Shown here: one piece after another, positions 28,901 through 64,000 of the stretch
Layout of the letters: each line of letters starts with the position of its first letter
How positions within the stretch are numbered: position 1 is the first letter of the stretch
Source: Galaxea fascicularis
Taxonomy: Eukaryota; Cnidaria; Anthozoa; Scleractinia; Euphylliidae
Assembly (NCBI GenBank): GCA_948470475.1
Contig: OX419346.1
Location: forward strand, 981,151 to 1,045,150
Reading direction: 5' to 3'
DNA: 64,000 nt
Notes under the pieces: model-generated
Database searches by the model: none
What the model was told of the DNA's origin: nothing
What the model saw: the letters and a program-made list of their open reading frames with translations, nothing else
Made by a program: the position numbers and the translations under genes

Positions 28901-31900
28901 CCAAGTTGAGAAGGAAGCCCTAGCTGTGACATGGGCATGCGAAAGGTTATCGGACTACCTCATCGGTAAGCCATTTCATATTGAAACTGACCACAAACCA
29001 TTAGTTCCTCTCCTGGGGTCAAAGAACTTAAATGAGATGCCACCAAGAATTCAGCGTCTACGAATGAGGCTGCTCAGATTCCAGTATTCCATCTCACACG
29101 TTCCAGGCAAGAGTTTGACAACAGCAGATGCCCTCTCAAGAGCTCCGATAAACCAAGAGCAGCAGTCAGGCTTACAAGAAGAAGAAATAGCCCTGTATGC
29201 GCACAGTGTTTTGAGTGAAATTCCAGCCAGCGACAGACGTCTGGAAGAGATAAGGGAACGCCAAGAGGAGGATGAAGTGTGCCGACAACTTACAGTCTAC
29301 TGCCAACTTGGCTGGCCAGAAAAAGATAGAGTTCCGGAGGCACTAAAAGGGTACTGGAGTGAGAGAGGAGAAATTACCTTAGTTCGTGGATTACTTCTGA
29401 AGGCTTCCAGAGTCATCATACCGTCCTGCATGAGGATAGAGATTCTTGATCGCTTGCATGAAGGCCATCAGGGCATCACAAAATGTCGCAGCCGTGCCAA
29501 GATGTCTGTGTGGTGGCCAGGCCTTAGTAGGCAGATTGAGGATATGGTTCAGGGATGCCGCAAATGTGCAGAACACCGATCTTTCCGAGCAGAACCCCTT
29601 ATTCCCTCAGTGGTTCCAAACAGGCCATGGCAGATCATCGGAACAGATTTGCTTCAGCTAAAGGGCCGCACCTATTTGCTTGTCGTGGATTACTTCAGCC
29701 GATACATTGAGGTGGCCTTGCTTTCATCATCCCAGACTTCGCAAGATGTCATTCAGGCACTGAAATCTATGTTTGCGAGACATGGAGTTCCAGACTCTGT
29801 CAGATCTGACAATGGTCCTCAGTATAGTTCAGCTGAATTCATCAAATTTGCAAAGGAATGGGGATTTGCAAGTGTGACAAGCAGTCCAAAGTACCCCCAA
29901 TCAAATGGGATGGCTGAACGTGCGGTGCAGACCGCAAAGAATGTCCTGAAGAAGGAGGATGATCCTGCTAAGGCGTTGCTTGCCTATCGCTCAACACCAT
30001 TAGAGAATGGTTACAGTCCAGCTGAGCTTCTGTTTGGTCGAAAGATAAGATCCAGAGTTCCACTTGCTGCGGTGGAGCTGAAACCCGGTTGGCCTGATTT
30101 GTCTATAGTCCGAGGTAAAGAGGAAGTTCGAAAGCAAGAGCAAAAGGCTTACTTTGATTCTCATCATGGTGCAAGAGATCAAAAGAAGATTCCTATGGGA
30201 ACCGAGGTTTGGATTCGAGACATGAAAGTTCCAGCGACTGTGACTCAAGAGGCAGAGACACCTCGTTCATACATTGTTAGCAGCCCCAGAGGAACTATCA
30301 GACGGAACCGGAAGGACCTTACTCCGCTGTACCCTAGCAGTCCTGATTTGAGCAAGCAAGGTCCTAGCAGTCCTGATTCGAGCAAGCAAATTCCAGAGGC
30401 GATCAAGTTGGATGTTCCGGCAGCTGCTTGTGCAGCTGGTGCAACCACAACTAGATCTGGGCGAGTAGTCAGTGCTCCCAGAAGATTGGACTTGTGACTG
30501 TGCAGGATAAATTTATGAACTGAACAGTCCGATCTCTAAGTTTACACAGTTTATGTTATAAGTTAGATCAAACTTTATTACCTTCATGTTTAGTAGTTTT
30601 GGCTACTCCCTGTAGTTTTTAAGGGGGAGATGTTGTGATGTTGAAATCGTTATAGTTTGTACTTTGTACCGAGTCACGTGACTTGGAGTAAAGGCACTTG
30701 AGTTCTTGAATGAATGGCGTCGTTTTGATCTTTTACGCTCGCCGATAAATAACACAACAATATGTTTCAATCTACATTTCTGCATGAGCTTCTTCCTTTC
30801 ACATTTGTCAACACCACATGTGCAAGACAAAAATTGTATTTTATAATGTACATGTTCAGATTTAAACTTATTTTGTGCTATATTGGCAATTGCTTCAACA
30901 AGTGAAGAAATACCGGTGATGCCTTTATTTTGTTGGATTGCAGGTTCACAAGTGTCATCATATGTCAACAAAGAGAACGTATACTTTGCTCTGGCTGTTT
31001 GTCGAAAAATACATGTAATACAGTAACTTGAAAGCCATAATAAAAACCCTGTGTTTTTACAGTAATTGCCTAAAATCAAGGTTTCTAGTTTGCTCTTGGT
31101 CTCTTGTGAATTAAATGATAACATCCCATGACTTTGAGTATTGAGAACCACTGAGATCTCTGCTCCACAAACTTGAACACTGCCACATAAATCACCACAG
31201 GTTTGATGTCTGTCAATTTCCATGTCACAGTCAAACTTATCTCCATACTTAGCAATAAAAGCTAAAGTGCTGGCATTCCAATAACTTGCAGGTTTGATGA
31301 GTGAGTAACATATTGCATATAACCCGAGAGCACAAGATTGTTTACAGGAAGAATTTGTTACTTCACTGTCATTGCTTAAAGGTTCATTTATGCCATATTT
31401 GAAAACTTGCACTCCTCTGAGTTCATAAACTTCACCATTTGCATGTACTCCTTGGAAATACTGTACTAAGTTTTGAATGGATGGTACTTCTAATAGCACA
31501 CAGGTACCCTGAGGATGGCTTTTACCATATGCATCTCTAGCATGTGAATCAAATATTTTAAACTTCCCTGTATCAGTACAATAAATGCCAACAGTAATAA
31601 ATCCTACTGTTAAAATGAATGACCTATAATTTTCTGACAGCAGTGATTCAAAGGCTCTATCCATGGGCATGCAATACTGATATCCCTCTATAATGGCATC
31701 ATTTTCTGCATTGCCAGTGTAACTTTCACTGAACTTTAACTGATAATTTTCCTCCAGCATTGAAATCATTGACGGTAGTTCTGTAAGCATTAAATATGAC
31801 TGTCCTGTTGACTGTGATAAAATAGAGTATAATTCATTTCCCATATTCATGATTTGTACCAGATCATTACAACTGTTTATTCCTTTGATATTGTTGTAAA

Positions 31901-33502
31901 CCAAAGCACACAAGCTCATGGCAACACATTGCTGTCCAGCATTTGCACCAAACACTGTCACATCACCTTGACTATATGGTGCTTTCATTGTTAGGGCGGG
32001 ATCAACATGATGTATAGGAGGCCCAGGATTTGTTTCTATGTCATTACGTAGTTTAAACATAGCACAGCACCCTGTGTGATTACCATTCTTGTACACGCTC
32101 ATGAGCCCACTGCACGTGTATAACAGTTGATGCTTCTTCAAATTTACCTGTTTTCGTCTACCGGTATATCTTTTGAAGCAAGGCAAAGGTGTTTGACGTA
32201 ATTTTCGTCGAACAGAAGCTGGCTTCTTCCTCACTCTTTGTACAAACCTTCCATCTACTGTTGGCCTCTTTGTAGTTCGAGTTCTTCTTAGCCTAGATTT
32301 GATGTAACGATGAAGTTTCGACGACAACGGAGTTTGCTTGAGAACTCTTTCCCACACGAACAATCTTAGCTTTCTGCTTTTCTGTGACAGACTTTTTAGC
32401 TTTTTCACTGGTATCCTACTGGGCTCGCGATCACAACGTCTTGATGGCACATGGCATTCACGGTTGTCGTTAAAACTCACAAACTTAGCATAACGAGATC
32501 TGAATTCCTTTCTATATTTTATTTTCACTAAGGCATCATGTTGATCATGTACAGATAACTGCAATGCTTTCTCAAATACCTCGCATTTTTCAAGTACATC
32601 CGACATTTGTGTTGATAAAACTGATAACACGCGAAGGTACAAGATTACACATAAAACTAACACACTACACAGACTTGATACAGCTGATAATCCACAATCT
32701 AAAGTATACAAAAGAAATGAAATACTGGTGACAATAGCCATTAAAGTAAAAACGTTACTTGCATCTTCGCTTCGATGCGTGGGTTCTTCATCACCCAACA
32801 TGGCCGCTTTCCTGTTGCTGTTGTTACTACTGCTGTTCATCTTTGTACCTCTAATCTCATCATCAACGGGTATCTTGTATTCGCCAGCACCTAAACTGTT
32901 CGTGTCAAAGTTTCCACCCAAGTTCGTCAAGGAACATTTGTCATTGGTAGTCAAAGTTTGTGCACTTTTTGTACTCATTGATAACTCATTCAGCTCATTT
33001 GATCTCATAATACTTCTGACATTTGCTTCGAGTTCGCGGAACGACCCGTTTCGAAATGTACGCTCACCATCATCATTTAGTGTGGGTCTACCGCGAACGG
33101 CGTGTGCGTTTGTAAGTGGTTTGAGCATATTGGATACGACACCGTTTGCCATAACTTTAGACATGTCAAGTTTTTCCTTTGAAAATCCGTCGAGGAATCC
33201 ACAATTGTTTCGAGCCTTGCTTTTCAATACACAAGACAAGCGTAAACAAAACGTAAACAGGTTTTTACCGGGTTTGACAGGTTCATCGTTAGCGCCTGCG
33301 CAAATACGCCGGAAATGAGGTTTGTGGAAAACAACGAAGAAAAAAAAAAAAAAAAAAAAAAAAACGAAGAACGGACGACAGATTTAGACTCGGGCCTTCC
33401 ACAGGAAGCCCGAGTAATTAGGGTTAATTTTTACCTTACAACATGTACATTAAAACACAAAATAAAGGATTATATACGTATACATGTACGTCTTGGTCAT
33501 CG

Positions 33503-47022: not shown

Positions 47023-47374
47023 CTTGTCTTCTTGATTTTTCACGCTCGCACAGCTTCATGGGATTAGTGCCAGTTTCCACCCATTCGCAGGGTTTGCATT
47101 ATAACACAGGGAATCCAAGCTCTATAAAAACGAATCACATTTGATGGGAAAATAAACAACGATTTTCAATAAAAACTTCCCTGAGTGGTTCTTGGGCCGA
47201 CTTGAAGAGATCTGGTGGAATTTCTACGGTGGCCCATATCTGCAAACACAGCAAACAATTCTTCAAGCACAACAAAATATTCTTGAAACACAACACACAA
47301 ATTTCGGAACACAACTCAATGTTATCGAAACACGATACAATGTTATCCTATCCAAAACACATTACAATTTTCTC

Positions 47375-47505
47375 GCAACGCAACAAAATATTTGCGAAAC
47401 ACAACACAATATTTGTGAAACGCAACACAATATTTGCGAAACACAACACAGTGTTTCTAAAACACAACACAATATTTGCGAAACACAACAACGAATGAGT
47501 TGCCA
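47375..47505. repeat. 21-bp tandem repeats, left arm
   Basis: About six units of the AACACAACACAATATTTGCGA type in the left arm of the foldback element. Confidence 0.85.
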
Positions 47506-47922
47506 GTAATCGGATCCGTGTCTTATGCGCATAGGATTCTGGGATCGCCAGAGGGCAAACATTGCCAGTCGCTAAAGGAAAGCCGGAGTGTATGGCGAAA
47601 AGTTATTTCGACGTCCATATGAACGATTTTCGAGAGAGATCAACGCTTTTTCGCCGCTGTTTTATCAGAAATGGATTTGGGCAATGTTGATACGTGGAAA
47701 GTGTTAGTTTTTGTTTGAATAACCGTCAAATATAGGATAAAATCTACCGATAAACATTCTTGCTTGCGTAAGGTTTATTGTGAAATTGACCTCGCGTAAT
47801 GGTCACGAAATATTGCAAAGTTAGGTATAAATCGGGAGGAAATGACTAAATAAAGTCTTTTCAGTTTTATTTGTATGTGTACGGGCTGTTTTCTTATTAG
47901 TTATGTCTTCCACAAACAAATT

Positions 47923-48339
47923 ATGGCTTTTGGAAATTTACCTCCTCAAAGGAGAGAAGTGGTTGTCAGAGGTGATGGAAATCGTTTTTACCGAACTGTT
48001 GCTCTTTGGAGGGATGAAATAAGCGATAACAAACATGAGGAAATTCGTAGGTTAAACTCTAGTTTGATTGAGAAAAAACCACTACTCTTCTCTTCGAAAT
48101 CTGCGGAGGAACATGTCAAGAACAGCAAGATCACAGGAACTTGGGCAGAAACTGTGTATATATTTTCATCTGCACTACCACTATGCTTTCTCTTTCTTCA
48201 CTTTTTCTTATTGCTCTCTGTAGATCTGATCTTTGGAGCAAGTCTTTGGGGTTTACCCCACAATCGTACCCTCTCATGCACAAAGTTGGTGTACGTAGGG
48301 CATTCAAACGGTTCTATAACCTTGTACAAAATAATTTGA
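47923..48339 (+). pseudogene. Decayed OTU-domain protein inside the foldback element
   Basis: The ORF reads VVRGDGNRFYRTVALWRDE then HEEIRRLNSSLIEKK and SKITGTWAET. OTU deubiquitinase-like proteases have D-G-N-C at this place, with Cys as nucleophile. Here the codon is CGT (Arg), one base from TGT. After TWAET the sequence turns into a hydrophobic tract unlike the family and the expected C-terminal His region is out of frame. It is thus likely inactive. The transposon's transposase is absent, so this copy is non-autonomous. Confidence 0.7.
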
Positions 48340-48944
48340 ACAGACCATCGTACTCGTTTTAAATTGAATTGATCACGATTAATAGCTCTAGCCCACAAAA
48401 AACATCTTCATTATCCCTGGGCGAGTAGAATCTGTTTTGCTTTTCTGGGTACCTTCAATCGTTGTCACAACCCCAGACAGCACAATGATCACCACTGGGC
48501 ATATTTCCAATATTATTTGTATTAATGAGCTTAGAAATAAGCTAAACGTAGCCTGTACACACGCAAATACAACTGAAAAGGCTTTATAGAGTCATTTCCT
48601 CCCGATTTATACCTAATTTTGCAATACTTCGTGACCATTACGCGAGGTCAATTTCACAATAAACCTTACGCAAGCAAGAATGTTTATCGGTAGATTTTAT
48701 CCTATATTTGACGGTTATTCAAACAAAAACTAACACTTTCCACGTATCAACATTGCCCAAATCCATTTCTGATAAAACAGCGGCGAAAAAGCGTTGATCT
48801 CTCTCGAAAATCGTTCATATGGACGTCGAAATAACTTTTCGCCATACACTCCGGCTTTCCTTTAGCGACTGGCAATGTTTGCCCTCTGGCGATCCCAGAA
48901 TCCTATGCGCATAGGACACGGATCCGATTACTGGCAACTCATTC

Positions 48945-49145
48945 ATTGTGTTTCACAAATATTGTGTTGTGTTTCGGAAATACTGTGTTGTGTTTCGCAA
49001 ATATTGTGTTGTGTTTCACAAATACTATGTTGTGTTTCGCAAATATTGTGTTGTGTTTTAGAAACACTGTGTTGTGTTTCGCAAATATTGTGTTGCGTTT
49101 CACAAATATTGTGTTGTGTTTCGCAAATATTTTGTTGCGTTTCGA
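48945..49145. repeat. 21-bp tandem repeats, right arm
   Basis: About nine units, inverse of those at 47375-47505 (TTGTGTTGTGTTTCGCAAATA type). The different copy number in the two arms indicates slippage or exchange after the arms arose. Confidence 0.85.
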
Positions 49146-49299
49146 GAAAATTGTAATGTGTTTTGGATAGGATAACATTGTGTCGTGTTTCGATAACATT
49201 GAGTTGTGTTCCGAAATTTGTGTGTTGTGTTTTAAGAATATTTTGTTGTGCTTGAAGAATTGTTTGCTGTGTTTGCAGATATGGGCCACCGTAAATTTC

Positions 49300-49770
49300 A
49301 GTTCCAGCGGTTTCTCTCCCCATTCTATTTAGAGCACCGAACTGCTGTGTGTGATGTCGGGGGTTCAAGCCCCGGCCGGACCAACACTCAGGGTCTTTAA
49401 AAATAACTGAGGAGATAGTGCTACCTTTGTCATGACATCTGCAAATGGTTAGGCTTTCTAGTCTTCTCGGATAAGGACGATAAACCGGAGGTCCCGTCTC
49501 ACAGTACTGGTGTGGGACGTTAAAGAGATCATACACTGATCGGAAAGAGTAGGGGACGTAGTCCCCGGTGTGATGGTCTATAACTTTTTCTGTTCTGGGG
49601 GCACCTGTGTTGATCCTAATATTTATTCAAGATAAAATTGTAAACTGCATGGCTGCAATTTGCGCCTAAAGCAGTCAGGCAAAGTCCCCCAAAAAGTTTT
49701 GTAAAGCGCTTTGAGCCCTTTGGATAAAAGCGCTATATAAATCCTCAAAAAAACAAAACAAAACAAAACA
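49300..49770 (+). repeat. tRNA-headed SINE, duplication copy 1
   Basis: Head with GGGTTCAAGCCCCGGCCGGAC (box B-like). The body has GATAAACCGGAGGTCCCGTC and the tail TTTGGATAAAAGCGCTATATAA followed by an A/C-rich end. The matching copy is at 58740-59195. Confidence 0.7.
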
Positions 49771-50245
49771 AAAAAAACATCCCCAGGGCTTCCATCAAAA
49801 CCTAAAAGAAATCCCCGGACCAAAACTTGATCCCCCAAAAAATTATCCCGCGGCCGGGATAACTGGGCACTACCCCCTGAGCACTACCACGAATCTTCAA
49901 TTTAATTATTGTTTTGAATACCAAACCAGATCCCTAGTTAAATCAAACCACACACACAAAACAAAAAATACTTGCCAAATCCTTCGATCATTCCCATCAC
50001 TTAAAATCTCGAGTTCCTCCCCACCATCACCCCCTCCCCCACCTTCTTCTATGCCTGTCTCAGGACCTTTAGCTTATTCGTCTTATTTATAACCGGCAAA
50101 CAGAACAACGCGCTGTACTGTGAAAATGGTTCACGGTGCACGACCTCGTAAGTGAGGCGCAGCCCAGGCGTACTATGTGAGACGAGGGGTTATCTATGAA
50201 AGTTGCAGATATTGGTGGTGTTTTCCATAGATTTAGTCAAAATAA

Positions 50246-50663
50246 AGCAGCCTGTGTAGCTGGTAGTTGTGTGTATAATATTGCTTGCGGCTCATAGGAA
50301 CAACTATAATACAACTCCATCTTCTGAAATCATTTTCACGTGCAAATAACTCCCAAATCAGGAGGTTTAGTGCACAGGACAACTGCGGAAACCATAGAAT
50401 AAAGATTGCTCTTTTTCTATTTTGATTACATCTACAGCTTTCAATCCGTAAGTAACCCCAGGTCACACATGGTACACCTGGGCTACCTGTGGTCACAAGA
50501 AGTACCTCATTACTGAGCTCTTCTATTTTCCTGTTTACTCGGCCATTTGCTCAAAATACACCAATGGCGCCGAAAATAACTCAACGAAGCCATTAATTGA
50601 ACTTTGAAACTAGACTATAGGACTGGCCATGTTCTATTCACTAGCGTCTAGATCGAATTGTCA
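50246..50663. other. 418-bp block present only in duplication copy 1
   Basis: Copy 2 reads straight from AAAATAAA to TCACTTC (about 59665-59675), while copy 1 has this block between. No inverted ends or target duplication found, so either an insertion in copy 1 or a loss in copy 2. No coding content recognised. Confidence 0.7.
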
Positions 50664-51859
50664 CTTCAACAATGCAGCGACTAATAGAGACAAAACAAAT
50701 CAAACCGCGAAAAAGCTGTATGGAAAAGTACCATGTGGTTATTGAGCCCCACTAGAACAAATTTATTAATCTAAAGGCTAAAAGGAAAGAACAGGACAGC
50801 ATGTTAGGTGTTACGTTAAAAAGTGGAAAACACAAAACACAAAATGGTTCACTTTGAGATTCACTATCACCTGGGACACTGATGGAGTCGAAAACAATTT
50901 CAAAGTAGTAATAATTGTTTGTGATTTTTTTACATAAATCACTTTCCATGAGATCAACTATTTTTATGATTGGATAAACTAATAACTTGAATAATGCAAC
51001 GAGTAAACAAAACAAAAAGTGATGTTTGAGGCTCGTAGACCTATTTTTGTTTGAATCTAGAGGCTACAATGCTCAGTTTCCAGATGTCTTTCTAGAGAGT
51101 GGCCATTTTGAAAGAGGAAATGGGCCTGTCTGTGTTTCGTTGGCACTAGACATTTTACCTTTGAGTTGAAATAGCTTATTTGTGGCAGAAAGCCAAAGGT
51201 GTCTTCGTTTCCATGCAGCGCGGTTTCTGTGTATTTTGAAGCCAGCTGTTTCAACAACAATCTTAAGCCTTTACGACAGTTATTATCATAACTGATATTG
51301 GGTTATACAGGATTCAAAGCTAGTTTCGACAGCTGCAGATTTTTTGTTTTATTTATTTCTCATTGGACTTGGCAAAGTTAACATCAGAGGTATTTCTCCT
51401 TTCTCGTTTTTACCGAAATGACGGCAATATCACTGAGCCATTTGCTTCATCACATCACCTTCACAAAAATGAGCGGTTTGTTCCTTTTATCGGATTATTC
51501 TCACGGGTTTTTCCATGCAAATGGAAAGCGCTCCTAATTGCCTCAACAGCATTGTGTCCAAAAGCAGTAGTAATTTGTTAAATCTTAAGAATTATATCCC
51601 TTACCCTGCACTGGGTGAATCTTTATCTCTCAGTCTATCTTGCTTTAGGCTTGTTTCTTATATCATTCCATTTATTATACTGTTGTCTAGTGACTCTTTG
51701 TTCCCGAAGAACAACTCCTCAAAATTTTGGGTGGAGATATAAGGAGTATACCTCTTGGAACTCCTTCCTATCTTCAAACAAAATTTGTCAAATCTTGTTT
51801 TTTATTATTGGTTTTGGCCACTAACTGTGCATGATTGTGTGCTTTGTTCACCTTTCAGA

Positions 51860-54212
51860 ATGGCGTTTAAAGGAATTATAATCATCTTGTGCTTTTCAGT
51901 AGTTGTTACTCACCTGAGCAAACAAGTTCACGCCTCGGTAAGGACACCTTAATAAGTTATGGTGTAAATTTCAGTTACGCAAGTCACACCATTTTTTGTC
52001 ATCGAGCGCAACCGAGAGTCCTATCGAACTCCCGTGGACTTGTTTTATATTTCCTTTGAGCAAATACGTAACGCAGGCACAGGGTAAGACATTAGTCTGT
52101 TGAAACATCAAAAAGGCCACATAACAAGCTAAGGAATGATGCAATTGCTACAGATTATGGTGCTTGCATAAAAGTTCAGTTGTACCAATGGTACTGAACC
52201 AAAGTGAGTGTGAATATATGAGATTCATGTATTTGAACTGTGAATTATTTATCGAAACGCCAGGGTAGATTCCAATGAGAATGTCTTTATAGTGGTGAGT
52301 TTACTCTACCTAACCAGTTGGTAAAGCAAGCTATTAGTAGCTATATTCATTTTAACTGCTGTACACGCCTTCTCCTTGTGCCGGTGTTTAGTAGAGCTGT
52401 GTTCTGTGGTATTAAAAAGGTAAGATTTTGTTTCTATAGCCCCCGATACGTACAGTTTCATTGTATTCCTTTCTTCCTTTTTTATTTCTTTATACCCTAT
52501 ATATACCCTAGATATGTGGAGATGGAGAAGCTAAAGTTCGAATTGGCGAGAGCTTTATCATGCCTTATCCAGACTGTCAGTCTTGCACATGTGTGGACCA
52601 GCAATGGTTTTACTGTGGACGTCTATGTTCTCCTGACTATTTTCAATGCCAAGTTGGAACAAAACCAACGTTCAAAGAACAACAGGTTGACGGTTCTGGA
52701 GGGTGCACTTGCACACGTAAGAGTAGTAATTATTTAACAATCCGGCAGGGGCTGGGTTCACGAAATCCTACGTAAGATGTGTCATGAGATAAAAGTTACG
52801 ATCTAATGCTTGTCACTGATAAGACAGGCGTAACTTAGGCGTCTCCTAACTTGACTGTTCTAGAAAAATTGTCGATTAGCACCCACAAGCCAATCGAATT
52901 TTCTGACTAACTCCAGCATATGAATAATTAAAACTCCAAATTTGAATAATCGCACCCAGTTGATTAACTGTTATCAACAAACTGATATCCTAAGTTGTGG
53001 TGGCGAACGGTGACAAACCATGTACAAATCCACTTTAACTTGAACGTTTAATACACAAAAAGGCCATGAGAGCACGACTCACAGTGATGCCGCGATATTA
53101 CAACGGTAGAATTCTCAGAAAACACGGACAATTTGAACTAAAACTGACCTAAAAAAACCGAGGAAAAGTTGACAAAACTGAGGTTTTAACTCGGTGGCCT
53201 CGTGAACACCGTTCGAAGAGGCCACCCCTACGCATGCGTGAACCTAAATATGTCTCTACAGGGATCCCAGCAGTAACATAAGTTATTAGGAATCTGGCCC
53301 TAGGTCTTTCTCTTCCATTCGCAGCTTTAATCTGAGCACCCCTTAAATTTAAATTCTTATTTGTTACCCCCACACATTTCCTATAGAAGTAGTAGGGAGA
53401 AATTGTTAATATATCAAGCAAACTCATCTTGTGTGATCCTGTCCTTAATTCTCGTGACCACTCTGTTATATTCTAGGTTGATATTACAAGGAGAAATTTG
53501 ATGCTGATCATCCTTAGGGATTTAAGGGCTAACACTCTGGGGTTATCAATTGAAACATGTTTGTGAAAATGTGTGAAAATTTTTCATAAGTGCAGCTATT
53601 GAAAAAAAAGTTCGAATTTTCCAGATGAAAACGAATGGCTCTTTAGGAGAAGCTTCGGATTCACTGTCAAAATAATCAATAATTTCTCCCAGTAACTAAT
53701 AGGTTAAGCCATGATGCACATCGGCTTTAGCTTTAATATTCAGAGCTTTGGTGATCTGTAGTCCGAAAAACGTAGGTCCATCACATGGGGCCTACAAGAA
53801 ATGAGGAAAAAAAATTGAATTATTGGCATACGTTGATTCAGTCTCGTGGTTTTCATGCGCATACAGGTGATGTTTGCGCGACAGCACCATAGTCGTGTGA
53901 GGATTCAGTTTTGTAAGCAACATTACGGTTGGGAAAAAATTATTGCTGCATGCGGTCGTTTCCTCACTTACAGGAAAATGAGGCCCCGACCAAATCATGA
54001 TTGATTGAGCTTCTGCGCCTGATTGTCAAACAGATCGTTACAATACAAATCAAATGAAAACGAGATTTAATTAACACTCCATCAAAAATTCTTTGCAAAC
54101 CTTTGCATACAATCCCTGCTTCCATTGTAATTGAGCAAATTCGAAAGTAGAGAGTAATCTCATTTGGTCCTATTTTGTTCTTGCAGGCTTCGACAAGTGT
54201 GTACCGTTATGA
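51860..54212 (+). CDS. Secreted ten-cysteine VWC-like protein, paralogue 1
   Basis: Three exons: 51860-51937, 52512-52716 and 54187-54212 (stop TGA), 102 residues. Exon 1 (MAFKGIIIILCFSVVVTHLS...) is a signal peptide. An AG directly before AATGG suggests a 5'UTR intron ends there. Exon 2 is the mature domain, with VRIGESFIMPYPDCQSCTC, YCGRLCSP and GGCTC; exon 3 adds RFDKCVPL. The ten cysteines and the GE-F-x(n)-C-xx-C-x-C core resemble a von Willebrand type C domain, but the second half fits less well and an antistasin-like fold is possible. Function unknown; secreted, disulfide-rich. The paralogue is at 60874-63565, and its exon 2 is far more diverged than the introns. Exon limits are inferred, but the same borders hold in both copies. 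Confidence 0.82.
53330..53540. repeat. Dispersed MITE-like repeat within duplication copy 1
   Basis: Shares ordered blocks with 37298-37485 and its own duplicate at 62390-62590 (AGGGAGAAATTGTTA, TGTGTGATCCTGTC, TTACAAGGAGAAATTTGATG). Lies in intron 2 of the VWC-like gene. Confidence 0.8.
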
Positions 54213-54605
54213 AGACTTTCTTCTCAAATTCCAGACAGTCAGAGATCTTATCTCAATAAGCATTTGTTAATCTTGCAAAAGGTCTAAGATACAAGGTAGC
54301 TACCTAAGAGGGGTGCTACTTGAAATGAAATAAATGCGAGAAATATACCAAAAACGTGATGCATGTTTGAATCGTCTTTGTCCCGAAGCACGGCAACTTG
54401 CATTGCCGCGAAATGCACCCGCGACAAAAAAGAAAAAAAAGGAGAGAAAAAGAAATGAGCTCCAAGCCATAGCGAACCCTATACCACATATTTAGATTTG
54501 TACCATATGACAGAAAAGGCAGCCAATAAGAAGACAGAAAAGTCGCTTTGTATTAGTCAGTATTCCACCGCACCTCCCCATGGCGAACCGCATTGATTAC
54601 GTAGG

Positions 54606-55841
54606 GCTTTATATTTTCTGTGACATCACGGGAACGCTCGTCTTGAGCAGCATCGGATGAGTATGTTGGGAAAAATATGAAATGAATTCCACATCATTTG
54701 AGTGACTTCTTCGAACGTTTATTGGAAAAATAACCTCAATCATCGATTGAGTGTGGTTTACAAACGTTGAATAGATTACATCAGAATGTGACTACATTAA
54801 TAAAATAATCCCTTTTTAGTCCCCGGCGAAAGGTATACTTATTTTTACAGTCGATCTTTTGCCCTAGTGCTGCTCAAAATCGATTAGTTTTTGGGTCGCA
54901 AATGATAAAACTGAACGCGTATGTGATCCACCCTAGGGGAGTTAGTTATCTGAAACTGATGTACTACGGGAAAGTTAATCTGTAACGGTCTTACGTCATT
55001 CTGAGTTTTGAGTATAAAATTAAAACCACTGAGAAAAAATCATGTTCCTTTTCTATACCCTTAATGTATATATATTGATAAAACTTATGTGTACATACAT
55101 GGTTGATAATCTTAAGAGTTTAATTTATAGAAAATATCTACTGCTACAGAATGCATGGTATGCGAATAGATTCTACTTTCAGCGAAGTAAATGGCCGGCA
55201 GAAACAGTTTGAGCCATGACTTCGAAACTCTTGGTAAAAAGAATCCCCTATGAAGATAGGGTCAATTTGTTTTCGCCTGTAATAAACCAGGCAAAGACAG
55301 CTAGTAAGGATGTTACAATATCGATTCGACAATATTTGAGATCTTAGAAAGATATTCGACTCTTGCATAATGATAGCAATAAATTCGATGCAGCTTATTT
55401 TAGTAAAATAACGGTATTATGTTTATCGGTATCGATATCATGTTGAATTTCTCAATATCGGAGGCACTTATAGTCATTCCCAGGCACCCATCGTTACTAA
55501 CTCTCAAATTTTGTTTTTAAAAAATGTCTGTAAAAAAACAAACAAACAAACAAACAAAACCGGTTACATGAGATAAATATACTACAGATATGCTGAGTAC
55601 GAAAGGTCAAAACGATTAGCCATTGACTCAAATTATAACCAAGTTGCATATAGAGATGTTAAGGGCAGACAGTTTCGGCAACTGGATATCGATAAAATGT
55701 TTAAACGAACTACGTGACTTGAAATATGCTTAGTACCGCAGGAGGTCAAACACTGAGTTGTTAGCGTCATTCTTTGGTCGTGCTTTCAGACCAAGCCTGT
55801 CTCGGTCTATAATTGACTTACTGATTTTTGTCCGTCGCAGT
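54606..55841. other. Single-copy spacer between the duplication and the TauE-like ORF
   Basis: No gene or repeat recognised beyond a short (CAAA)n run at about 55535-55558. It is probably 3' flank of the TauE-like ORF. Confidence 0.4.
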
Positions 55842-56801
55842 CTACACTTGACTGATTGACTGCGTAGAAGCAAATCCAGCACTCATCCTCCCTAGATCGA
55901 TATCACCGGGTGGGTTGTTCAGCTTGTGATTCACGTCTCCATTAGCAATAGTTTCCGCTTCAATTTTCTTCTCATAAGCAGCGTTAATCTGCGTCTGTGG
56001 TAAGTTCTCCTTCTCCTCTTCAATCCCTTCCATTAATTTTTGCCCCGCGTACGCGATCAGTCCGAAAAACACGAATCCAAAAACTATGATTCCAACGGAC
56101 GCGCCTATCAGTGCTTTGGTTAGCGGTACGATGGCATAAGCGCTGATAAGGGCCACGGTGTCCAGTAAATAGATCAAACCTGCCAGGACCTGACGATGGA
56201 AGTGGCTTCCGACGACAGAGCCCAGGGGTGCCCCTAACACCACAATAGGGACACAAACTGCTAAGTAGTAATACGCCTCTGCTCTGACGGCTTGTTGTAT
56301 CACCTGACGCCAATAAAAACCCACTACGGTGTTTCCCGCCATAAGGACAACGGAGGTGGGTGTGGCTGTCTTTTCACTTACGCGGAAGAGGAGGGTCAGG
56401 ATACTGAAGCTGCAGACGTCCACGCCACTTCCGGCGATGGCAGAGAAGATTCCTCCAATGAAGCCAGTCAAGAGAAGAACGGCCATCTTCCAAAGCCTGA
56501 AGTCTGGAATGACTTGGTAAGTTGTACGCTTTTGGTAGCGGTTCAACAGGAACAGTGCGAATGCGAAAGCAAACCAAACACATACAAAGCCCATTTTCTT
56601 CTGAGGTGGAGTGAGGTTGGGATCAATGAGCTCCAGTCCGATCACCATACCAGGAGCCCATAAATAGGAGCCTCCATATGCACTGTATCCTTGAGTCAAC
56701 CTTTGCGCGTATCTTTCTATTTTTAGAACTCTCTTTTCTACAGAAGGCTCAATTTTACCGCGAACATCTGTTTCCGGTAAAGTCCGCACACAACCATCCA
56801 A
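55842..56801 (-). CDS. TauE/SafE-type sulfite/anion exporter, probably 5'-truncated
   Basis: 319 residues in one exon. About five hydrophobic helices can be drawn (FVCVWFAFAFALFLL, AVLLLTGFIGGIFSAIAG, YYLAVCVPIVVLGAPLG, LAGLIYLLDTVALISAYAIV, GIIVFGFVFFGLIAYAG). GGIFSAIAGSGVDV matches the second half-repeat glycine motif of TauE/SafE permeases, which move sulfite or organosulfonates across membranes. The C-terminal 70 residues are hydrophilic. The family normally has two similar halves of four helices; here the first is missing. The first roughly 50 residues instead read through a dispersed repeat (56652-56733). So this is either a final exon of a larger gene, a truncated copy, or a pseudogene with an open frame. 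Confidence 0.6.
   Translation of the reverse strand: MDGCVRTLPETDVRGKIEPSVEKRVLKIERYAQRLTQGYSAYGGSYLWAPGMVIGLELIDPNLTPPQKKMGFVCVWFAFAFALFLLNRYQKRTTYQVIPDFRLWKMAVLLLTGFIGGIFSAIAGSGVDVCSFSILTLLFRVSEKTATPTSVVLMAGNTVVGFYWRQVIQQAVRAEAYYYLAVCVPIVVLGAPLGSVVGSHFHRQVLAGLIYLLDTVALISAYAIVPLTKALIGASVGIIVFGFVFFGLIAYAGQKLMEGIEEEKENLPQTQINAAYEKKIEAETIANGDVNHKLNNPPGDIDLGRMSAGFASTQSISQV
56652..56733 (-). repeat. Dispersed repeat fused to the TauE-like ORF
   Basis: On the minus strand it carries AAAGATACGCGCAAAGGTTG and GGCTCCTATTTATGGGCTCC, both shared with 58447-58528 on the plus strand. A stretch between the two blocks differs. Confidence 0.8.
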
Positions 56802-58446
56802 AATAAAATGGCGGCGAAAGGCGGGGAGCGCGTTGTCGCGATCCTTCGCTTCTTTTTCCTTTCTGTTTAGTCCACAGGCTAATTTTTACAACCGAGAGAA
56901 CCTGGTTCGTATAGAATAAGGTTAATAGGTAACTTGTATGTAGTCGAGCCATGGAATGTAATAAAAATGCAGCGACGATTGTGCTTCTTCTGACTTCTGT
57001 GTTGTCTTTTCGTCTCGAATTTTTTTTATCGCGAAGGTTATGAAATCGATAGCCACGTCCTTTAGAATGAATCGTTGTTTCAAAGAGTCTGAAAATCGCA
57101 CAGCTTTAACTGGAAGGTCTTTGGATGTCCACGTTCGCGAAGAAAACAAGGTGAGCTTGAGTGAAAGCAGTGGTGAAATCAACAACCCTGTGATAGCGGC
57201 GGATGTGCTTCTGCGGACGGTGTAAAAGGTCTCTTGCCAAAGAAACTTCAGGACAAATTAAGTTCTACGAATTCTAAAGAGACTGACATTCTGGGAAAGT
57301 GGCATAGGGAACTTTCAGTAGCTGGATTTAGTGGTGAGATACTGAATCTCATCAGGAAGCATTCACTCTACACGAGATCGAGCCTCTCGCTCACTTCCCC
57401 GAACGTGTCCTTGTTCTTTACCCTTCAAATGTTTATTCTTATGCCGAACAAACCGGACTATTTCAGCCTGTTCGTTTGATTGTTCATGACGACGGAAAGT
57501 GGAGTTTGCAATGCCCCATCTACGAGCACATAATTTTAAAGTCGGGTTCGCTAGACACTCTAGAATCTTCATGCCTGGTACAAGTTGCCAAGTAAAATGG
57601 GGTTGGAGGGCCTATACGACTCCTGATCGCGTGTTTGCCGCTTCTATCTCGGCTCTAAAGACCGATTTAGCTTCTTGCTTGTTTTAAGTGGGGCAACACG
57701 GTGGTTTAGAGGATAGCATGATGGTGATAGTGATCGAAACACCCATGTGCTTAAATGTCGCATGTTATGTATTTTGATACCAAAGGTCATTTCTGGGTTT
57801 AAATTCTGCATTTATCGCCTGTTTGTTTCGACGCTTATTGTTTCTGTTTAGCGACTGTGGTCCTTTATATGCCATCTTAAGCATTTTGTCTAGCTTTGCT
57901 TTGGCTCGTTTCAGTGCGTTCAGTGACAGAACAGCCTCTCTCTTGTCACCAAGGATAGGAATTTTGAGCCGCGTAATATGATAATCTTTATCTTGCAGCC
58001 GGTTTGTACATTACCGGGCCCGGTTATTTGGTTTTGTAGCAAGACGTTGCGTTTCTTTTGCGACTATTCGTCTCTTTATCCTTTCTTTAGTGTTGTAGCT
58101 TCTTAGAGAGCTATGCAACACGTGAATTTGACCGCTAAAATCCGCTCTAATTACGGCTGTGTTTTTGTCATCGTTTCGCTCCGCTCCGTGACTGCGGTTA
58201 TAATATTTTCCCCCTTTTGTTTATGTCAGTGGTTTTGGCTGTGTTTGGGTACGCAGTTAAATGATAGGCAACAAAAACAGTTGTCGCAAAAATCCGAACT
58301 TTCACATAGTTCATCACTCGAAGAGTCTTCCTATCTGCCCTCCATTACTGTGACTTTTCGCCGAGATCACGTCATGTGAGGTAAACATGCCGCTTTATTC
58401 TGATTGGACATTCTAAACAGTGGGCGCGAATCTAGTCACCCGCAGT
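56802..58446. other. Region with no gene recognised
   Basis: Several short open frames occur (for example 57040-57225 + and 57499-57687 +). None shows a domain, signal peptide or matched splice set. Some could be remnants of a broken gene or retroelement. No inverted repeats noticed. Confidence 0.4.
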
Positions 58447-58528
58447 GTTCTAAAAATAAAAAGATACGCGCAAAGGTTGACTCAGAGGGCTTGTATGGGA
58501 GAGGGAGGCTCCTATTTATGGGCTCCTG
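58447..58528 (+). repeat. Dispersed repeat, plus-strand copy
   Basis: Partner of 56652-56733 in opposite orientation; ends with GGGCTCCTG, where the two copies part. Confidence 0.8.
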
Positions 58529-58739
58529 ACCATACCAATAAGACCTCCGATGGAACAGAAAATAATGGGATTAGTGCCAGTTTCCACCCATTCGCTGGGT
58601 TGCATTATGACACAGGCAACCCAAGCTCTACAAAAAACGAATCAGATTTGAAGGGAAAATGAACAACGATTTTCAATAAAAACTTCCCTGAGTGGTTCTT
58701 GGGCCGATTTGAAGAGGTCTGGTGGAGTTTCAGTTCCAA

Positions 58740-59195
58740 CTGTTTCTCTCCCCATTCTATTTAGAGCACCGGACTGCTATGTGGGAGGTCGTGGGTTCAA
58801 GCCCCGGCCGGACCAACACTCAGGGTATTTACATGAGGAAAATAACTGAGGAGAACGTGCTACCTTTGTAATGACATCTGCAAATGGTTACACTTTCTAG
58901 TCTTCTCGGGTAAGAACGATAAACCGGAGGTCCCGTCTCACAGCACTGGTGTGGGACGTTAAAGAACCCACACACTGAACGGAAAGAGTAGGGGACGTAG
59001 TCCCCGGTGTGATGGTCTATAACTTGTTTTGTTCTGGGGGCACCTGTTTTCAACCTTAATATTCATCCAAGATAAGATTGTAAACTGCGTGGCTGCAATT
59101 TGCGCCTAAAGCAGTTTCGTAAAGTCCCCCAAAAAGTGTGGTAAAGCGCTTTGAGCCCTTTGGATAAAAGCGCCATATAAATCCTCAAAAAAAAA
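58740..59195 (+). repeat. tRNA-headed SINE, duplication copy 2
   Basis: Same element as 49300-49770, with GGGTTCAAGCCCCGGCCGGAC and the tail GGATAAAAGCGCCATATAA, ending in an A run. Confidence 0.7.
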
Positions 59196-60873
59196 AAAAC
59201 ATCCCCAGAGCTTCCATCAAAACCTACAAAGAAATCCCCGGAACAAAACTTGATCCCCCCAAAAAATTATCCCGATCAGTGGGCACTATCCCCCCTGAGC
59301 ACTACCACGAATCTTCAATTTAATTATTGTTTTGAATACCAAACCAGATCTCTAGTTAAATCAAACCACACACACAAAAACAAAAAATACTTGCCAAATC
59401 CTTCGATCATTCCCATCACTTGAAATCTCGAGTTCCTCCCCACCATCACCCCTTTCCCCCAGCTTCTTCTATGCCAGTCTCAGGACCCGGCTTTAGCTTA
59501 TTCGTCTTATTTATAACCGGCAAACAGAACAACGTGCTGTACTGTGAAAATGGTTCACGGTGCACAACCTCGTAAGTGAGGCAGCCCAGGCGTACTATTT
59601 GAGACTAGGGGTTATCTACGAAAGTTGCAGATATTGGTGGTGTTTTCCATAGATTTAGTCAAAATAAAGTCACTTCTACAACGATGCAGCGACTAATAAA
59701 GACAAAAGAAATCAAACCGCGAAAAAGCTGTATGAAAAAGTGCCATGGGGTTATTGAGCCCCACTAGAACAAGTTTATTAATCTAAAGGATAAAAGGAAA
59801 GAACAGGACAGCATGTTAGGTGTTACGTTAAAAAGTGGAAGACACAAAACACAAAATGGTTCACTTTGAGATTCACTATCACCTGGGACACTGATGGAAT
59901 CGAAAACAATTTCAAAGTAGTAATGATTGATTGTGATTTTTTACATAAATCACTTTCCATGAGATCAACTATTTTTATGATTGGATAACCTAATAACTTG
60001 AATAATGCAACGAGTAAACAAAACAAAAACTGATGTTTGAGGTTCGTAGACCTATTTTTGTTTTAATCTAGAGGCTACAATGCTCAGTTTGCAGATGTCT
60101 TTCTAGAGAGTGGCCATTTTGAAAGAGAAAATGGGCCTGTATGTGTTTCGTTGGCACTAGACATTTTACCTTTGAGTTAAAATAGCTTATTTGTGGCAGA
60201 ATGCCAAAGGTGTCTTCGTTCCCATGCAGCGCGGTTTCTGTGTATTTTGACACCAACTGTTTCAACAACAATCTTAAGCCTTTACGACAGTTATTATCAT
60301 AACTGATATTGGGTTATACAGGATTCAAAGCTAGTTTCGACAGCTGCAGATTTTTTGTTTTATTTATTTCTCATTGGACTTGGCAAAGTTAACATCATAG
60401 GTATTTCTCCTTTCTCGTTTTTACCGAAATGACGGGAATATCACCGAACCATTTGCTTCATCACATCACCTTCACAAAAATGAGCGGTTTGTTCCTTTTA
60501 TCGGATAATTCTCACGGGTTTTTCCATGCAAATGGAAAGCGCTCCTAATTGCCTCAACAGCATTGTGTCCAAAAGCAGTAATAATTTGTTAAATCTTAAG
60601 AATTATATCCCTTACCCTGCACTGGGTGAATCTTTATCTCTCAGTCTATCTTGCGTTAGGCCTGTTTCTTATATCATTCCATTTATTATACTGTTGTCTA
60701 GCTAGTGACTCTTTGTTCCCGAAGAGCAACTCCTCAAAATTTTGGGTGGAGATATAAGGCGTATACCTCTTGGAAATTCTTCCTATCTTTATCAAAATTT
60801 GTCAAATCTTGTTTTTTATTATTGTTTTTGGCCGCTGGCTGTGCATGATTGTGTGCTTTGTTCACTTTTCAGA

Positions 60874-63565
60874 ATGGCATTTAAAGGAATTATAATCATC
60901 TTGTGCTTTTCAGTAGTTGTTACTCACCTGAGCAAACAAGTTCACGCCACGGTAAGGACACGTTAATGAGTTATGGTGTAAATTTCCGTTACGCAAGTCA
61001 CACCATTTTTTGTCAGCCAGCGCAACCGAGAGTTCTATCGAACTCCCGTGGGCTTTTTTTATATTTCCTTTTAACACTTGAGCAAATACGTAACGCAGGC
61101 ACAGGGTAAGACATTAGTCTGTCGAAACATTAAAAAGGCCACATAACAAGCTAAGGAATGATGCAATTGCTGTAGATTGTGGTGCTTGCATAAAAGTTCA
61201 GTTGTGCGAATGGTAACCAAAGTGAGCGTGAATAGATGAGAATCATATATTTGAACTGTGAATTATTTATCGAAACGCCAGGCTAGATTCCAAAGAGAAT
61301 GTCTTTATAGTGGTGAGTTTACTCTACCTAACCAGTTGGTAAAGCAAGCTATTCATTTTAACTGCTCTACTCGCCTTTTCCTTGTGTCAGTGTTTAGTAG
61401 AATTTGGCTGTGTTCTGTGGTATTAAAAAGGTACGATTTTCTTTCTATAGCCTCCAAGGCGTACAGTTTCATGGTATTCCTTTCTTCCTTTTTTATTTCT
61501 TTATACCCTATATATACCCTAGATATGTGAAACCGTTGCTGGAGAAGTTCAAGCTGGCGAACGCTTCATCATGCCTCATCCATACTGTGGGTCTTGCACA
61601 TGTGCGGGCCAGCAAATATTATCCTGTGTACCTCTATGTTCTCCTGAGTATTATCAATGCCCACTTGGAAAAAAACCATCGTTCAAAATACAACACTTTG
61701 AAGGTTCTGGAGGGTGCACTTGCAAACGTAAGAGTAGTAATTACTTAACAATCCGGCGGGGGCTGGGTTCACGAAATCTGACGTAAGATGTGTCTTGAGA
61801 TAAAACTTAACAGAAAAGTTACGATCTTCTTGAGATATTTCCTAAGCGCTATTCACAAATTAAGTCTAATGCCTATCACTGATAAGACAGGCGTAACTTA
61901 GGCGTCTCCTAACTTCACTGTTCTAGAGAAATTGTCGATTAGCACCCACAAGCCAATCGAATTTTCTTACTAACTCCCGCATATGAATAATTAAAACCCC
62001 AAATTTGAATAATCGCAGTCAGTTGATTAACTGTTATCAACAAACTGATATCCCAAGTTGTAGTGGCGAACGGTGACAAATTATGTACAAATCCATTATA
62101 ACTTTAACGTTTAATACACGAAAGGCCATAAGCGCGACTCACAGTGATGTCGCGATATTACAACAGTAGAATTCTCAGAAAACACGGACAATTTGAACTA
62201 AAACTGACCTAAAAAACTGAGGAAAACTTGACATAACTGAGGTTTTAACTCGGTGGCCTCGTGGACACCGTTCGAAGAGGCCACTTCCACGCATGCGCGA
62301 ACCTGGATCCCAGCAGTAACATAAGTTATTAGGAATCTGGCCCCAGGTCTCTCTCTTCCATCCGCAGCTTTAATCTGAGCACCCCTTAGATTTAAATTCT
62401 AATTTGTGACCTCTATACATTTCCTGTATAAGTACTAGAGAGAAATTGTTACTGGAACATATCAAGCAAACTCATCTTGTGTGATCCTGTCTTTAATTCT
62501 CGTGACCACTCTGTTATATTCTAGGTTGATATTACAAGGAGAAATTTGATGCTGATCATCCTTAGGGATTTAAGGGCTAACACTCTGGGGTTATCGATTG
62601 AAACATGTTTGAGATATGCATACTGTGTGAAAATGTTTCATAAGTGCAACTATTGAAAACAAGTTCGAATTTTCCAGATGAAAACGAAGGGCTCTTTAGG
62701 AGAAGCTTCGATTCACTGCTATAATAATCAATAATTTCTCCCAGTAACTAATAAGTTAAGCCATGATGTACATCGGCTTTAGCTTTAATATTCCGAGCTT
62801 TGGTGATCTGCAGTCCGAAAAACGTAGGTCCATCACATGGGGCCCACAAGAGTTGAGAAAAAAAAATTGAATTATTGGCATATGTTGATTCAGTCTTGTG
62901 GTTTTCATGCGCATGCAGGTGATATTTATGCGACAGCACCATAGTCGTGTTAGGATTCAGTTTTGTATGCGAGCTTCAATTTTATTAATTTATATTTTTG
63001 TCTCAACTCTTGTGAGCCCCCTGTGGGTCCATGTTTGAACAGTTTTCGATTTCGTGGTACTGAAAACGTAACAAAATGAAATCCGCGTTTAAGTGCTTAC
63101 TGGATGAAAAAAATTCTGCGTTTCTTTGGAACCACTTGTGTATTAATGCAAATCAGAGGTAAACATTTTGGTTTGCTAAACAGGTGAAAGCTTAAAGCAT
63201 TTGCCGATTCATCTGATGATGGGCTAGTGAACGTAAATCACAAGAAACGTAAGCAACATTACGGTTGGGAAAAAAAAATTATTGCTGCAGGTGGTCGTGG
63301 TCCCATGGTCGTTGCACCACTACCAGGAAAATGAGGCCCCGACCAAATCATGATTGGTTGAGCTCCTGCGCCTGATTGTCAAACAGATCGTTACCATACA
63401 AATCAAATGAAAACGAGATTTAATGAACACTCGCTCAAAAATTCTTTACAAACCTTTGGATGCAATCCCTGCTTCCACTGTAATTGAGCAAATTCGAAAG
63501 GAGAGAGTAATCTCATTTGGTCCTATTTTGTACTTGCAGGCTTCGACAAGTGTGTAGCGTCATGA
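60874..63565 (+). CDS. Secreted ten-cysteine VWC-like protein, paralogue 2
   Basis: Three exons: 60874-60951, 61523-61727 and 63540-63565 (stop TGA), 102 residues, exon lengths 78, 205 and 26 exactly as in paralogue 1. The signal peptide differs by one silent base and one replacement (last residue S to T). The mature exon reads AGERFIMPHPYCGSCTC, CVPLCSPEYYQC and GGCTC; exon 3 gives RFDKCVAS. All ten cysteines stay in register with paralogue 1, but about 30 of 68 exon-2 residues are replaced. An extra 284 bases in intron 2 do not touch the splice sites. Function unknown; defence peptide, venom-like or recognition roles would fit such a pattern, but none is shown. Confidence 0.82.
62390..62590. 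repeat. Dispersed MITE-like repeat within duplication copy 2
   Basis: Duplicate of 53330-53540, sharing TGTGTGATCCTGTC and TTACAAGGAGAAATTTGATG. Lies in intron 2 of the VWC-like gene. Confidence 0.8.
62968..63251. other. 284-bp insert found only in duplication copy 2
   Basis: Copy 1 reads straight through TTTTGTAAGCAACATT, while copy 2 has this block between TTTTGTA and AGCAACATT. A GTA at both joints may be a 3-bp duplication or chance. No ORF or inverted ends seen. Confidence 0.7.
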
Positions 63566-64000
63566 AGACTTTCTTCTCAAATTCCAGACAGTCAGAGATC
63601 TTATCTCAATAAGCATTTGTTAATCTTGCAAAAGGTCTAAGATACAAGGTAGCTACCTAAGAGGGGTGCTACTTGAAATGAAATAAATGCGAGAAATATA
63701 CCAAAAACGTGATGCATGTTTGAATCGTCTTTGTCCCGAAGCGCGGCAACTTGCATTGCCGCGAAATGCACCCGCGACAAAAAAGAAAAAAAAGGAGAGA
63801 AAAAGAAATGAGCTCCAAGCCAGAGGGAGCCCTATACCATATATATAGATTTGTACATTGTGACAGAAAAGGCAGCCAATAAGAAGGCAAAAAAGTCGCT
63901 TTATATTAGTCGCTATTCCACCGCACCTCCCCATGGCGCACAGCATTGATTACATAGGTGCGGTTCCCTGATACCCTTTACTAGGGCTAACGCCCAATGG

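Follow-up and report, generated by a model that had tools for sequence, protein, structure and literature searches.

We detected, in a stretch of 64,000 nucleotides from the stony coral Galaxea fascicularis (hereafter the window; C12:981151-1045150, on a 22-Mb contig of a 416.6-Mb genome in 170 contigs), two three-exon genes predicted to encode small secreted cysteine-rich peptides, in which the exon for the mature domain differs far more between the copies than the introns and flanks around it. We consider it probable that these genes, referred to as copies A and B, are tandem paralogues of a stand-alone secreted VWC/TILa-like peptide with ten cysteines, and that their second exon has been diversified by selection, as an effector or recognition molecule might be.

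The genes are direct copies (51860-54212 for copy A, 60874-63565 for copy B), each with a first exon of 78 bases, a second exon of 205 bases and a coding end of 26 bases in the third exon, joined across GT-AG introns (Table 1). The product is predicted to be a secreted peptide of 76 residues after removal of a signal peptide, which was assigned together with its cleavage site by eye. Its ten cysteines stand at identical places in A and B, with spacings of 19,2,1,7,3,6,18,1,5 and no two of them adjacent, while the calculated isoelectric points are 4.77 for A and 7.65 for B. The exon model is supported by the cysteine number, since an even count (10) is reached only when exon 3 is joined, and an AATAAA motif was seen by eye about 120 bases 3' of the coding part of exon 3 in copy A. 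From this anatomy we infer splicing, secretion and disulfide formation.

Realignment of the copies gave the same counts as the earlier note on this DNA had reached by hand, with 2 differing bases among the 78 of exon 1 and 42 among the 205 of exon 2 (20.5%), where the alignment is gap-free and 9/9 cysteines are kept, again as claimed. The coding part of exon 3 differs at 2 of the 25 bases compared. Introns and the surrounding repeat had been put at some 4-8% divergence and were measured at 3.6-7.1%, with 33/558 differing bases in intron 1, 103/1447 in intron 2, 31/858 upstream (3.6%) and 16/389 downstream (4.1%); overall, 254 of 4524 aligned non-exon bases differ (5.6%). The mature part, with its 20.5% set against 3.6-7.1%, has thus changed at three to four times the rate of the neighbouring non-coding DNA. 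A sliding scan in segments of 205 bases peaked at 42 differences in the segment starting at 52510, two bases from the start of exon 2, while the 4219 segments of the duplication clear of exon 2 held at most 22 (mean 11.0, standard deviation 4.7), and the divergence boundary is sharp at both ends of the exon.

The changes within exon 2 fall in 32 codons, of which 30 replace the residue and 2 are silent, as the earlier note had estimated, and they are commonest at the second codon position (12, 19 and 11 at positions 1, 2 and 3). Codons 3-8, spanning 18 bases, hold 11 of the 42 differences and may, judging from the aligned letters, represent two compensating 6-base indels. When they are set aside, 31 of the remaining 187 bases differ (16.6%; p 1.6e-7 against non-exon bases). 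The cysteine framework has been held throughout, with changed bases at 0/27 positions in cysteine codons and at 42/178 elsewhere (p 0.0017). When 42 changes were placed at random 10,000 times, 12.6% of the outcomes were stop-free, 0.3% kept the nine cysteines and 0.07% did both, so that the chance of the frame and the nine cysteines surviving together is 0.0007. Overall, the copies show one combination by which a rapidly diversifying secreted peptide is recognised, namely mature coding sequence that has changed more than its non-coding neighbourhood behind a conserved signal exon.

Tests of selection agree in direction and vary in strength with the clock chosen. Counting gave a dN of 0.267 and a dS of 0.152 for exon 2, a ratio of 1.76, and non-synonymous change in exon 2 exceeded change in the flanks (p 6e-12). 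Given that the flanks are a fair clock, relaxed constraint alone is insufficient, because the non-synonymous rate lies above the flank rate. Codon maximum likelihood with time fixed to the flanks returned an omega of 5.6 for exon 2 (confidence interval about 4.1-7.4; p 7e-15), and with time fixed to the introns an omega of 4.6 (about 3.3-6.1; p 2e-12). Leaving out codons 3-8, omega came to 4.6 on the flank clock and 3.8 on the intron clock, and to 6.2 when time was left free (p 0.012); leaving out the cysteine codons, it was 2.6 with free time (p 0.056). The earlier note had set against diversifying selection a dN/dS at or below 1 with introns as diverged as exon 2; instead, the introns have diverged one third as much and dN/dS lies at 1.76-2.2. 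Its reading of the pattern as diversifying selection stands firmly on coding change in excess of intron change, and less so on dN/dS itself, which is not significantly above 1 from exon 2 alone. We regard diversifying selection as the likely source of the exon 2 pattern, a judgement that depends on the flanks being a fair clock, and selection as the cause, like any function of the peptides, is what we infer from it.

Several observations weigh against selection as the explanation. With free time, exon 2 alone gave an omega of 2.2 that is not significant (p 0.10), and dN was equal to or below dS in 126 of 2000 bootstraps. Synonymous change in exon 2 (6 of 43.7 sites; about 0.15) is itself higher than change in the flanks (p 0.038), and such a raised synonymous divergence is not predicted by amino-acid selection by itself. 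Transitions and transversions number 15:27 in exon 2 and 146:108 in the flanks (p 0.012), a shift that may reflect selection or another mutational source. Purely synonymous changed codons (2, with an expected mean of 5.7) are not significantly fewer than expected (p 0.058), exon 1, at an omega of 0.32, does not fall significantly short of 1 (p 0.16), and the whole case is built on two copies in one genome, from sequence alone. To these is added the main rival, gene conversion of the flanks.

In that rival, the duplication would be older than the flanks imply, conversion having homogenised introns and flanks, while the differences in exon 2 escaped it or were shielded by the loss of converted exons. 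The flank clock would then be too short and omega about 1.6-2.2. The exon 2 dS (0.15) above the flank divergence fits this history, as does the lack of significance with free time, and with neutral divergence set to 0.2 omega drops to 1.58 (p 0.017). On the other hand, if neutral divergence is taken as 0.16, close to the exon 2 dS, omega is still 1.98 (p 0.0005; kappa held at the flank value). Besides, the differences end close to both ends of exon 2, whose borders conversion tracts would not be expected to respect, and outside exon 2 no segment of 205 bases exceeds the maximum of 22 differences given above. We thus hold conversion to be unlikely, though to be taken seriously.

The packing of differences into codons 3-8 and the changed transition/transversion ratio would also be explained if exon 2 of one copy had been wholly or partly replaced by recombination with a diverged paralogue, and exon-confined switching of this kind is known from snake toxins, according to the portion of PMC2711939 available. 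No donor was found, however, in the genome, where a single DNA query and a single protein query turned up no third close copy, and the remaining exon 2 differences are mostly scattered single changes, which makes such a switch improbable. That one copy is a decaying pseudogene is very improbable, as both frames are open, splice sites and all ten cysteines are kept, chance retention of frame and exon 2 cysteines has a p of 0.0007, and exon 2 has changed faster than the flanks. Least credible is a false duplication, in which two haplotypes of one locus were joined in the assembly; it would account for two similar copies 9 kb apart, but the sequence beyond the left border is unrelated on both sides, the copies are separated by a unique stretch that contains a TauE-type frame, the flanks have diverged by 5.6% and the contig is 22 Mb long.

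Under diversifying selection, we propose that duplication of at least 5.4 kb gave rise to two tandem paralogues, after which exon 2 would have changed under selection while the signal exon, the splice sites and the cysteines were held. The changes would have altered the loops between the cysteines and the surface charge (calculated isoelectric point 4.8 against 7.7). The peptides would be exported by means of the signal exon, would take their fold from five disulfides and would bind to, or act upon, a varying partner outside, such as prey or a competitor, a microbe, or the cells of another individual, so that each copy could track a different target. A varying outside partner is suggested because there are two copies in which the signal exon and the disulfide frame are conserved and the loops and charge are changed. 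Judging from these features, an effector of the defence or venom type appears most likely, followed by a role in gamete or self recognition.

The affiliation of the peptide appears to be indirect. The peptide matched no Pfam family even at an E value of 10, and NCBIfam gave no match to it. A shared-short-word search of a protein database gave no candidate for copy A and three for both copies, none at an E value of 1 or better; this database includes named stony coral proteins, but it works by shared short words and annotations may lack genes that are small and multi-exonic, so the null result is weak evidence that the family is restricted. In the PDB, copy A drew 10 unconvincing matches, mostly antibodies (best E 0.15), and a profile of the peptide drew none, while a scan of IMG/VR gave 28 pattern matches, none of which was confirmed. 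Structure prediction of exon 2 reached a mean pLDDT of 46.5 with the two-sequence alignment and 38.4 with copy B alone, values too low to justify searching for similar folds. The earlier note had not recognised a described family, and our searches agree, as no named family was convincingly matched and, among the matches listed, the family is not described in open-licence PMC titles or abstract openings.

A search of the genome with exon 2 of copy A (E up to 10) returned three matches, namely copies A and B and a place on another contig, C7 (E 0.017). The family has a second locus there (L020, minus strand, and L024), with three domains of the same ten-cysteine layout within about 48 kb; the matched place contains the first two, less than 1 kb apart, and the third lies about 46 kb away. 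Their cysteine spacings are 19,3,1,7,3,4,18,1,4, then 17,3,1,7,3,8,17,1,4 and 17,3,1,10,3,7,17,1,4. The reverse search with the first C7 domain gave five matches, which are itself, copy A (E 0.0075), the second domain (0.11), the third (0.48) and a place on contig C13 (1.79); copy B is not among them, and the C13 match was taken as chance, as it lies in a large frame in which no such cysteine pattern was found. In hhalign, the profile of A and B aligned with that of the first two C7 domains at a score of 43.3 (probability 95%), which was reached by 0/200 shuffles with the cysteines kept (maximum 30.8). The first two C7 domains thus look homologous to the peptide, at a distance, while the putative kinship of the third, absent from the profile test, rests on its cysteine layout and a weak match (0.48).

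These relatives carry the link to known domains. The first C7 domain matches TILa (1e-5) and VWC2L (0.004), the second TILa (1.8e-4) and the third VWC (0.014), all below the Pfam gathering scores, and the profile of the first two reached an hhalign probability of 20% against VWC. The peptide itself, compared with five VWC sequences, reached 1.2%, with 4/100 cysteine-kept and 1/100 full shuffles scoring as high. The guess of the earlier note that the family is VWC-like thus gains support at one remove, from the sub-threshold matches of the C7 relatives; the peptide itself matches VWC poorly and looks like a stand-alone VWC/TILa-type peptide through them. By eye, the first C7 domain occupies a single phase 1-1 exon, while the genes in the window have their last cysteine on exon 3.

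The expectation of the earlier note that more copies would lie beyond the window did not hold. Only two close copies were found in the 416.6-Mb genome with one 541-base DNA query and one copy A exon 2 protein query, and no further copy in the 30 kb before or the 45 kb after the window. The DNA query, covering exon 1 and most of intron 1, had two long matches; seven others, of 40-49 bases, all fell within a single part of intron 1 and are presumably a dispersed repeat.

Table 1. Positions of the duplicated segments and of the gene parts in the window.
Feature	Positions	Strand	Remarks
Duplicated segment, copy A	47058..54605	+	self-comparison; includes inserted element 47225-49293
Duplicated segment, copy B	58565..63958	+	self-comparison
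Copy A exon 1	51860..51937	+	signal peptide (by eye) MAFKGIIIILCFSVVVTHLSKQVHA plus one residue; donor GTAAGG; phase 0
Copy A intron 1	51938..52511	+	5.9% different from copy B intron 1 (60952-61522)
Copy A exon 2	52512..52716	+	mature domain, 9/10 Cys; phase 0 start, phase 1 end
Copy A intron 2	52717..54186	+	7.1% different from copy B intron 2 (61728-63539)
Copy A exon 3, coding part	54187..54212	+	FDKCVPL + stop; supplies tenth Cys; frame matches phase-1 donor of exon 2
Copy B exon 1	60874..60951	+	signal peptide (by eye) plus one residue
Copy B exon 2	61523..61727	+	mature domain; 38/68 residues identical to copy A
Copy B exon 3, coding part	63540..63565	+	FDKCVAS + stop

Similarity between the duplicated segments ends on the left at 47058 and 58565, beyond which the two sequences are unrelated, and the right border, 42 bases from the end of the window, was judged on little sequence. 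The copy A flank alone carries an inserted element of about 2.07 kb (47225-49293) with 266-base terminal inverted repeats that are 98.9% alike, the site being empty in copy B near 58728; AATTTC, seen by eye at both of its ends, is likely a target duplication, and the ends hold a repeat reading ETQHNIC in one frame. About 280 bases (62971-63248) are unique to intron 2 of copy B. The frame between the copies (55842-56801, minus strand; Pfam TauE 2e-9) encodes a TauE-type transporter whose best named relatives are from stony corals (78% identical in Desmophyllum pertusum, then Pocillopora, Oculina and Stylophora), and it also has closer database relatives at 96%, 91% and lower. A short inverted copy of its 5' stretch (56651-56732 against 58444-58528; 85% identical) sits directly before the left border of segment B and is perhaps a trace of the rearrangement. 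When 80 kb of neighbouring sequence was compared, a non-coding stretch of 116 bases in L011 was 76% alike to the duplicated segment and was taken as a repeat.

Elsewhere in the window, an open frame of 2070 amino acids (20056-26268, minus) with Helitron_like_N, PIF1 helicase and DUF6570 domains is, by its domain content, a Helitron-type element. It adjoins a retrotransposon, an open frame of 1299 amino acids (26598-30497, plus) with reverse transcriptase, RNase H and integrase domains, and the product of an 878-amino-acid frame (30603-33239, minus) matching Herpes_teg_N (1.7e-7) may represent a protease-like domain from a mobile element.

We suggest, as a doubtful extension of these results, that the pair belongs to an undescribed family of stand-alone VWC/TILa-type coral peptides under active diversifying selection in one lineage, counter to the purifying rule reported for most cnidarian venom genes, and that the two copies could be engaged in an arms race or serve gamete or self recognition. 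Expression in nematocytes or mucus cells would make the pair a notable exception, and expression in gametes would make it a candidate recognition protein in corals.

Among known systems, the VWC/TILa domains (PF00093, PF12714, PF23333) share with the peptide the order of the ten cysteines and the C-x2-C-x-C core seen in the VWC domain of collagen IIA, while the candidate ends in C-x-C-x5-C, not CC-x2-C, and forms a peptide of its own instead of one module in a large protein; strict membership in VWC (PF00093) failed at this C-terminal end and at the profile level. SCRiPs of stony corals and sea anemones are likewise small secreted cysteine-rich peptides, and a subset of the Acroporidae members is described as under diversifying selection in the available part of PMC10892658. 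Their framework, as given in excerpts, has eight (PMC10892658) or 8-10 cysteines (PMC6627431), three of them together near the C terminus; the candidate, with ten cysteines, none adjacent and no C-terminal triplet, falls outside it. The sea cucumber Apostichopus japonicus has, in the portion of PMC5638244 at hand, 11 tandem species-restricted small cysteine-rich PSP94-like genes expressed in regenerating intestine; with 11 copies and a cysteine topology likened to PSP94 they differ from the candidate, and they are set beside it by description only.

The pattern of divergence has closer counterparts. In callitrichines, the duplicated MSMB (PSP94) has translated exons more dissimilar than its introns, with changes that mostly replace residues, as PMC2746217 states in the part available. 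Beta-microseminoprotein is also a small secreted protein with ten cysteines, with another cysteine layout and a four-exon gene, and homology was rejected (hhalign probability 1.3%, 24/100 cysteine-kept shuffles as high). In the snake venom genes described under the name ASSET, the signal exon and introns are conserved and radical change is limited to the mature exons (PMC2711939, in the same portion), in other folds, another phylum and multigene families as opposed to two copies here. The kind of finding is thus already known from marmoset MSMB and snake toxins, as far as these partial sources go, and the pattern is that of venom, antimicrobial and reproductive proteins. The Galaxea pair adds a self-controlled case, in which, after one duplication and with its own introns as the clock, the mature exon outran its non-coding surroundings.

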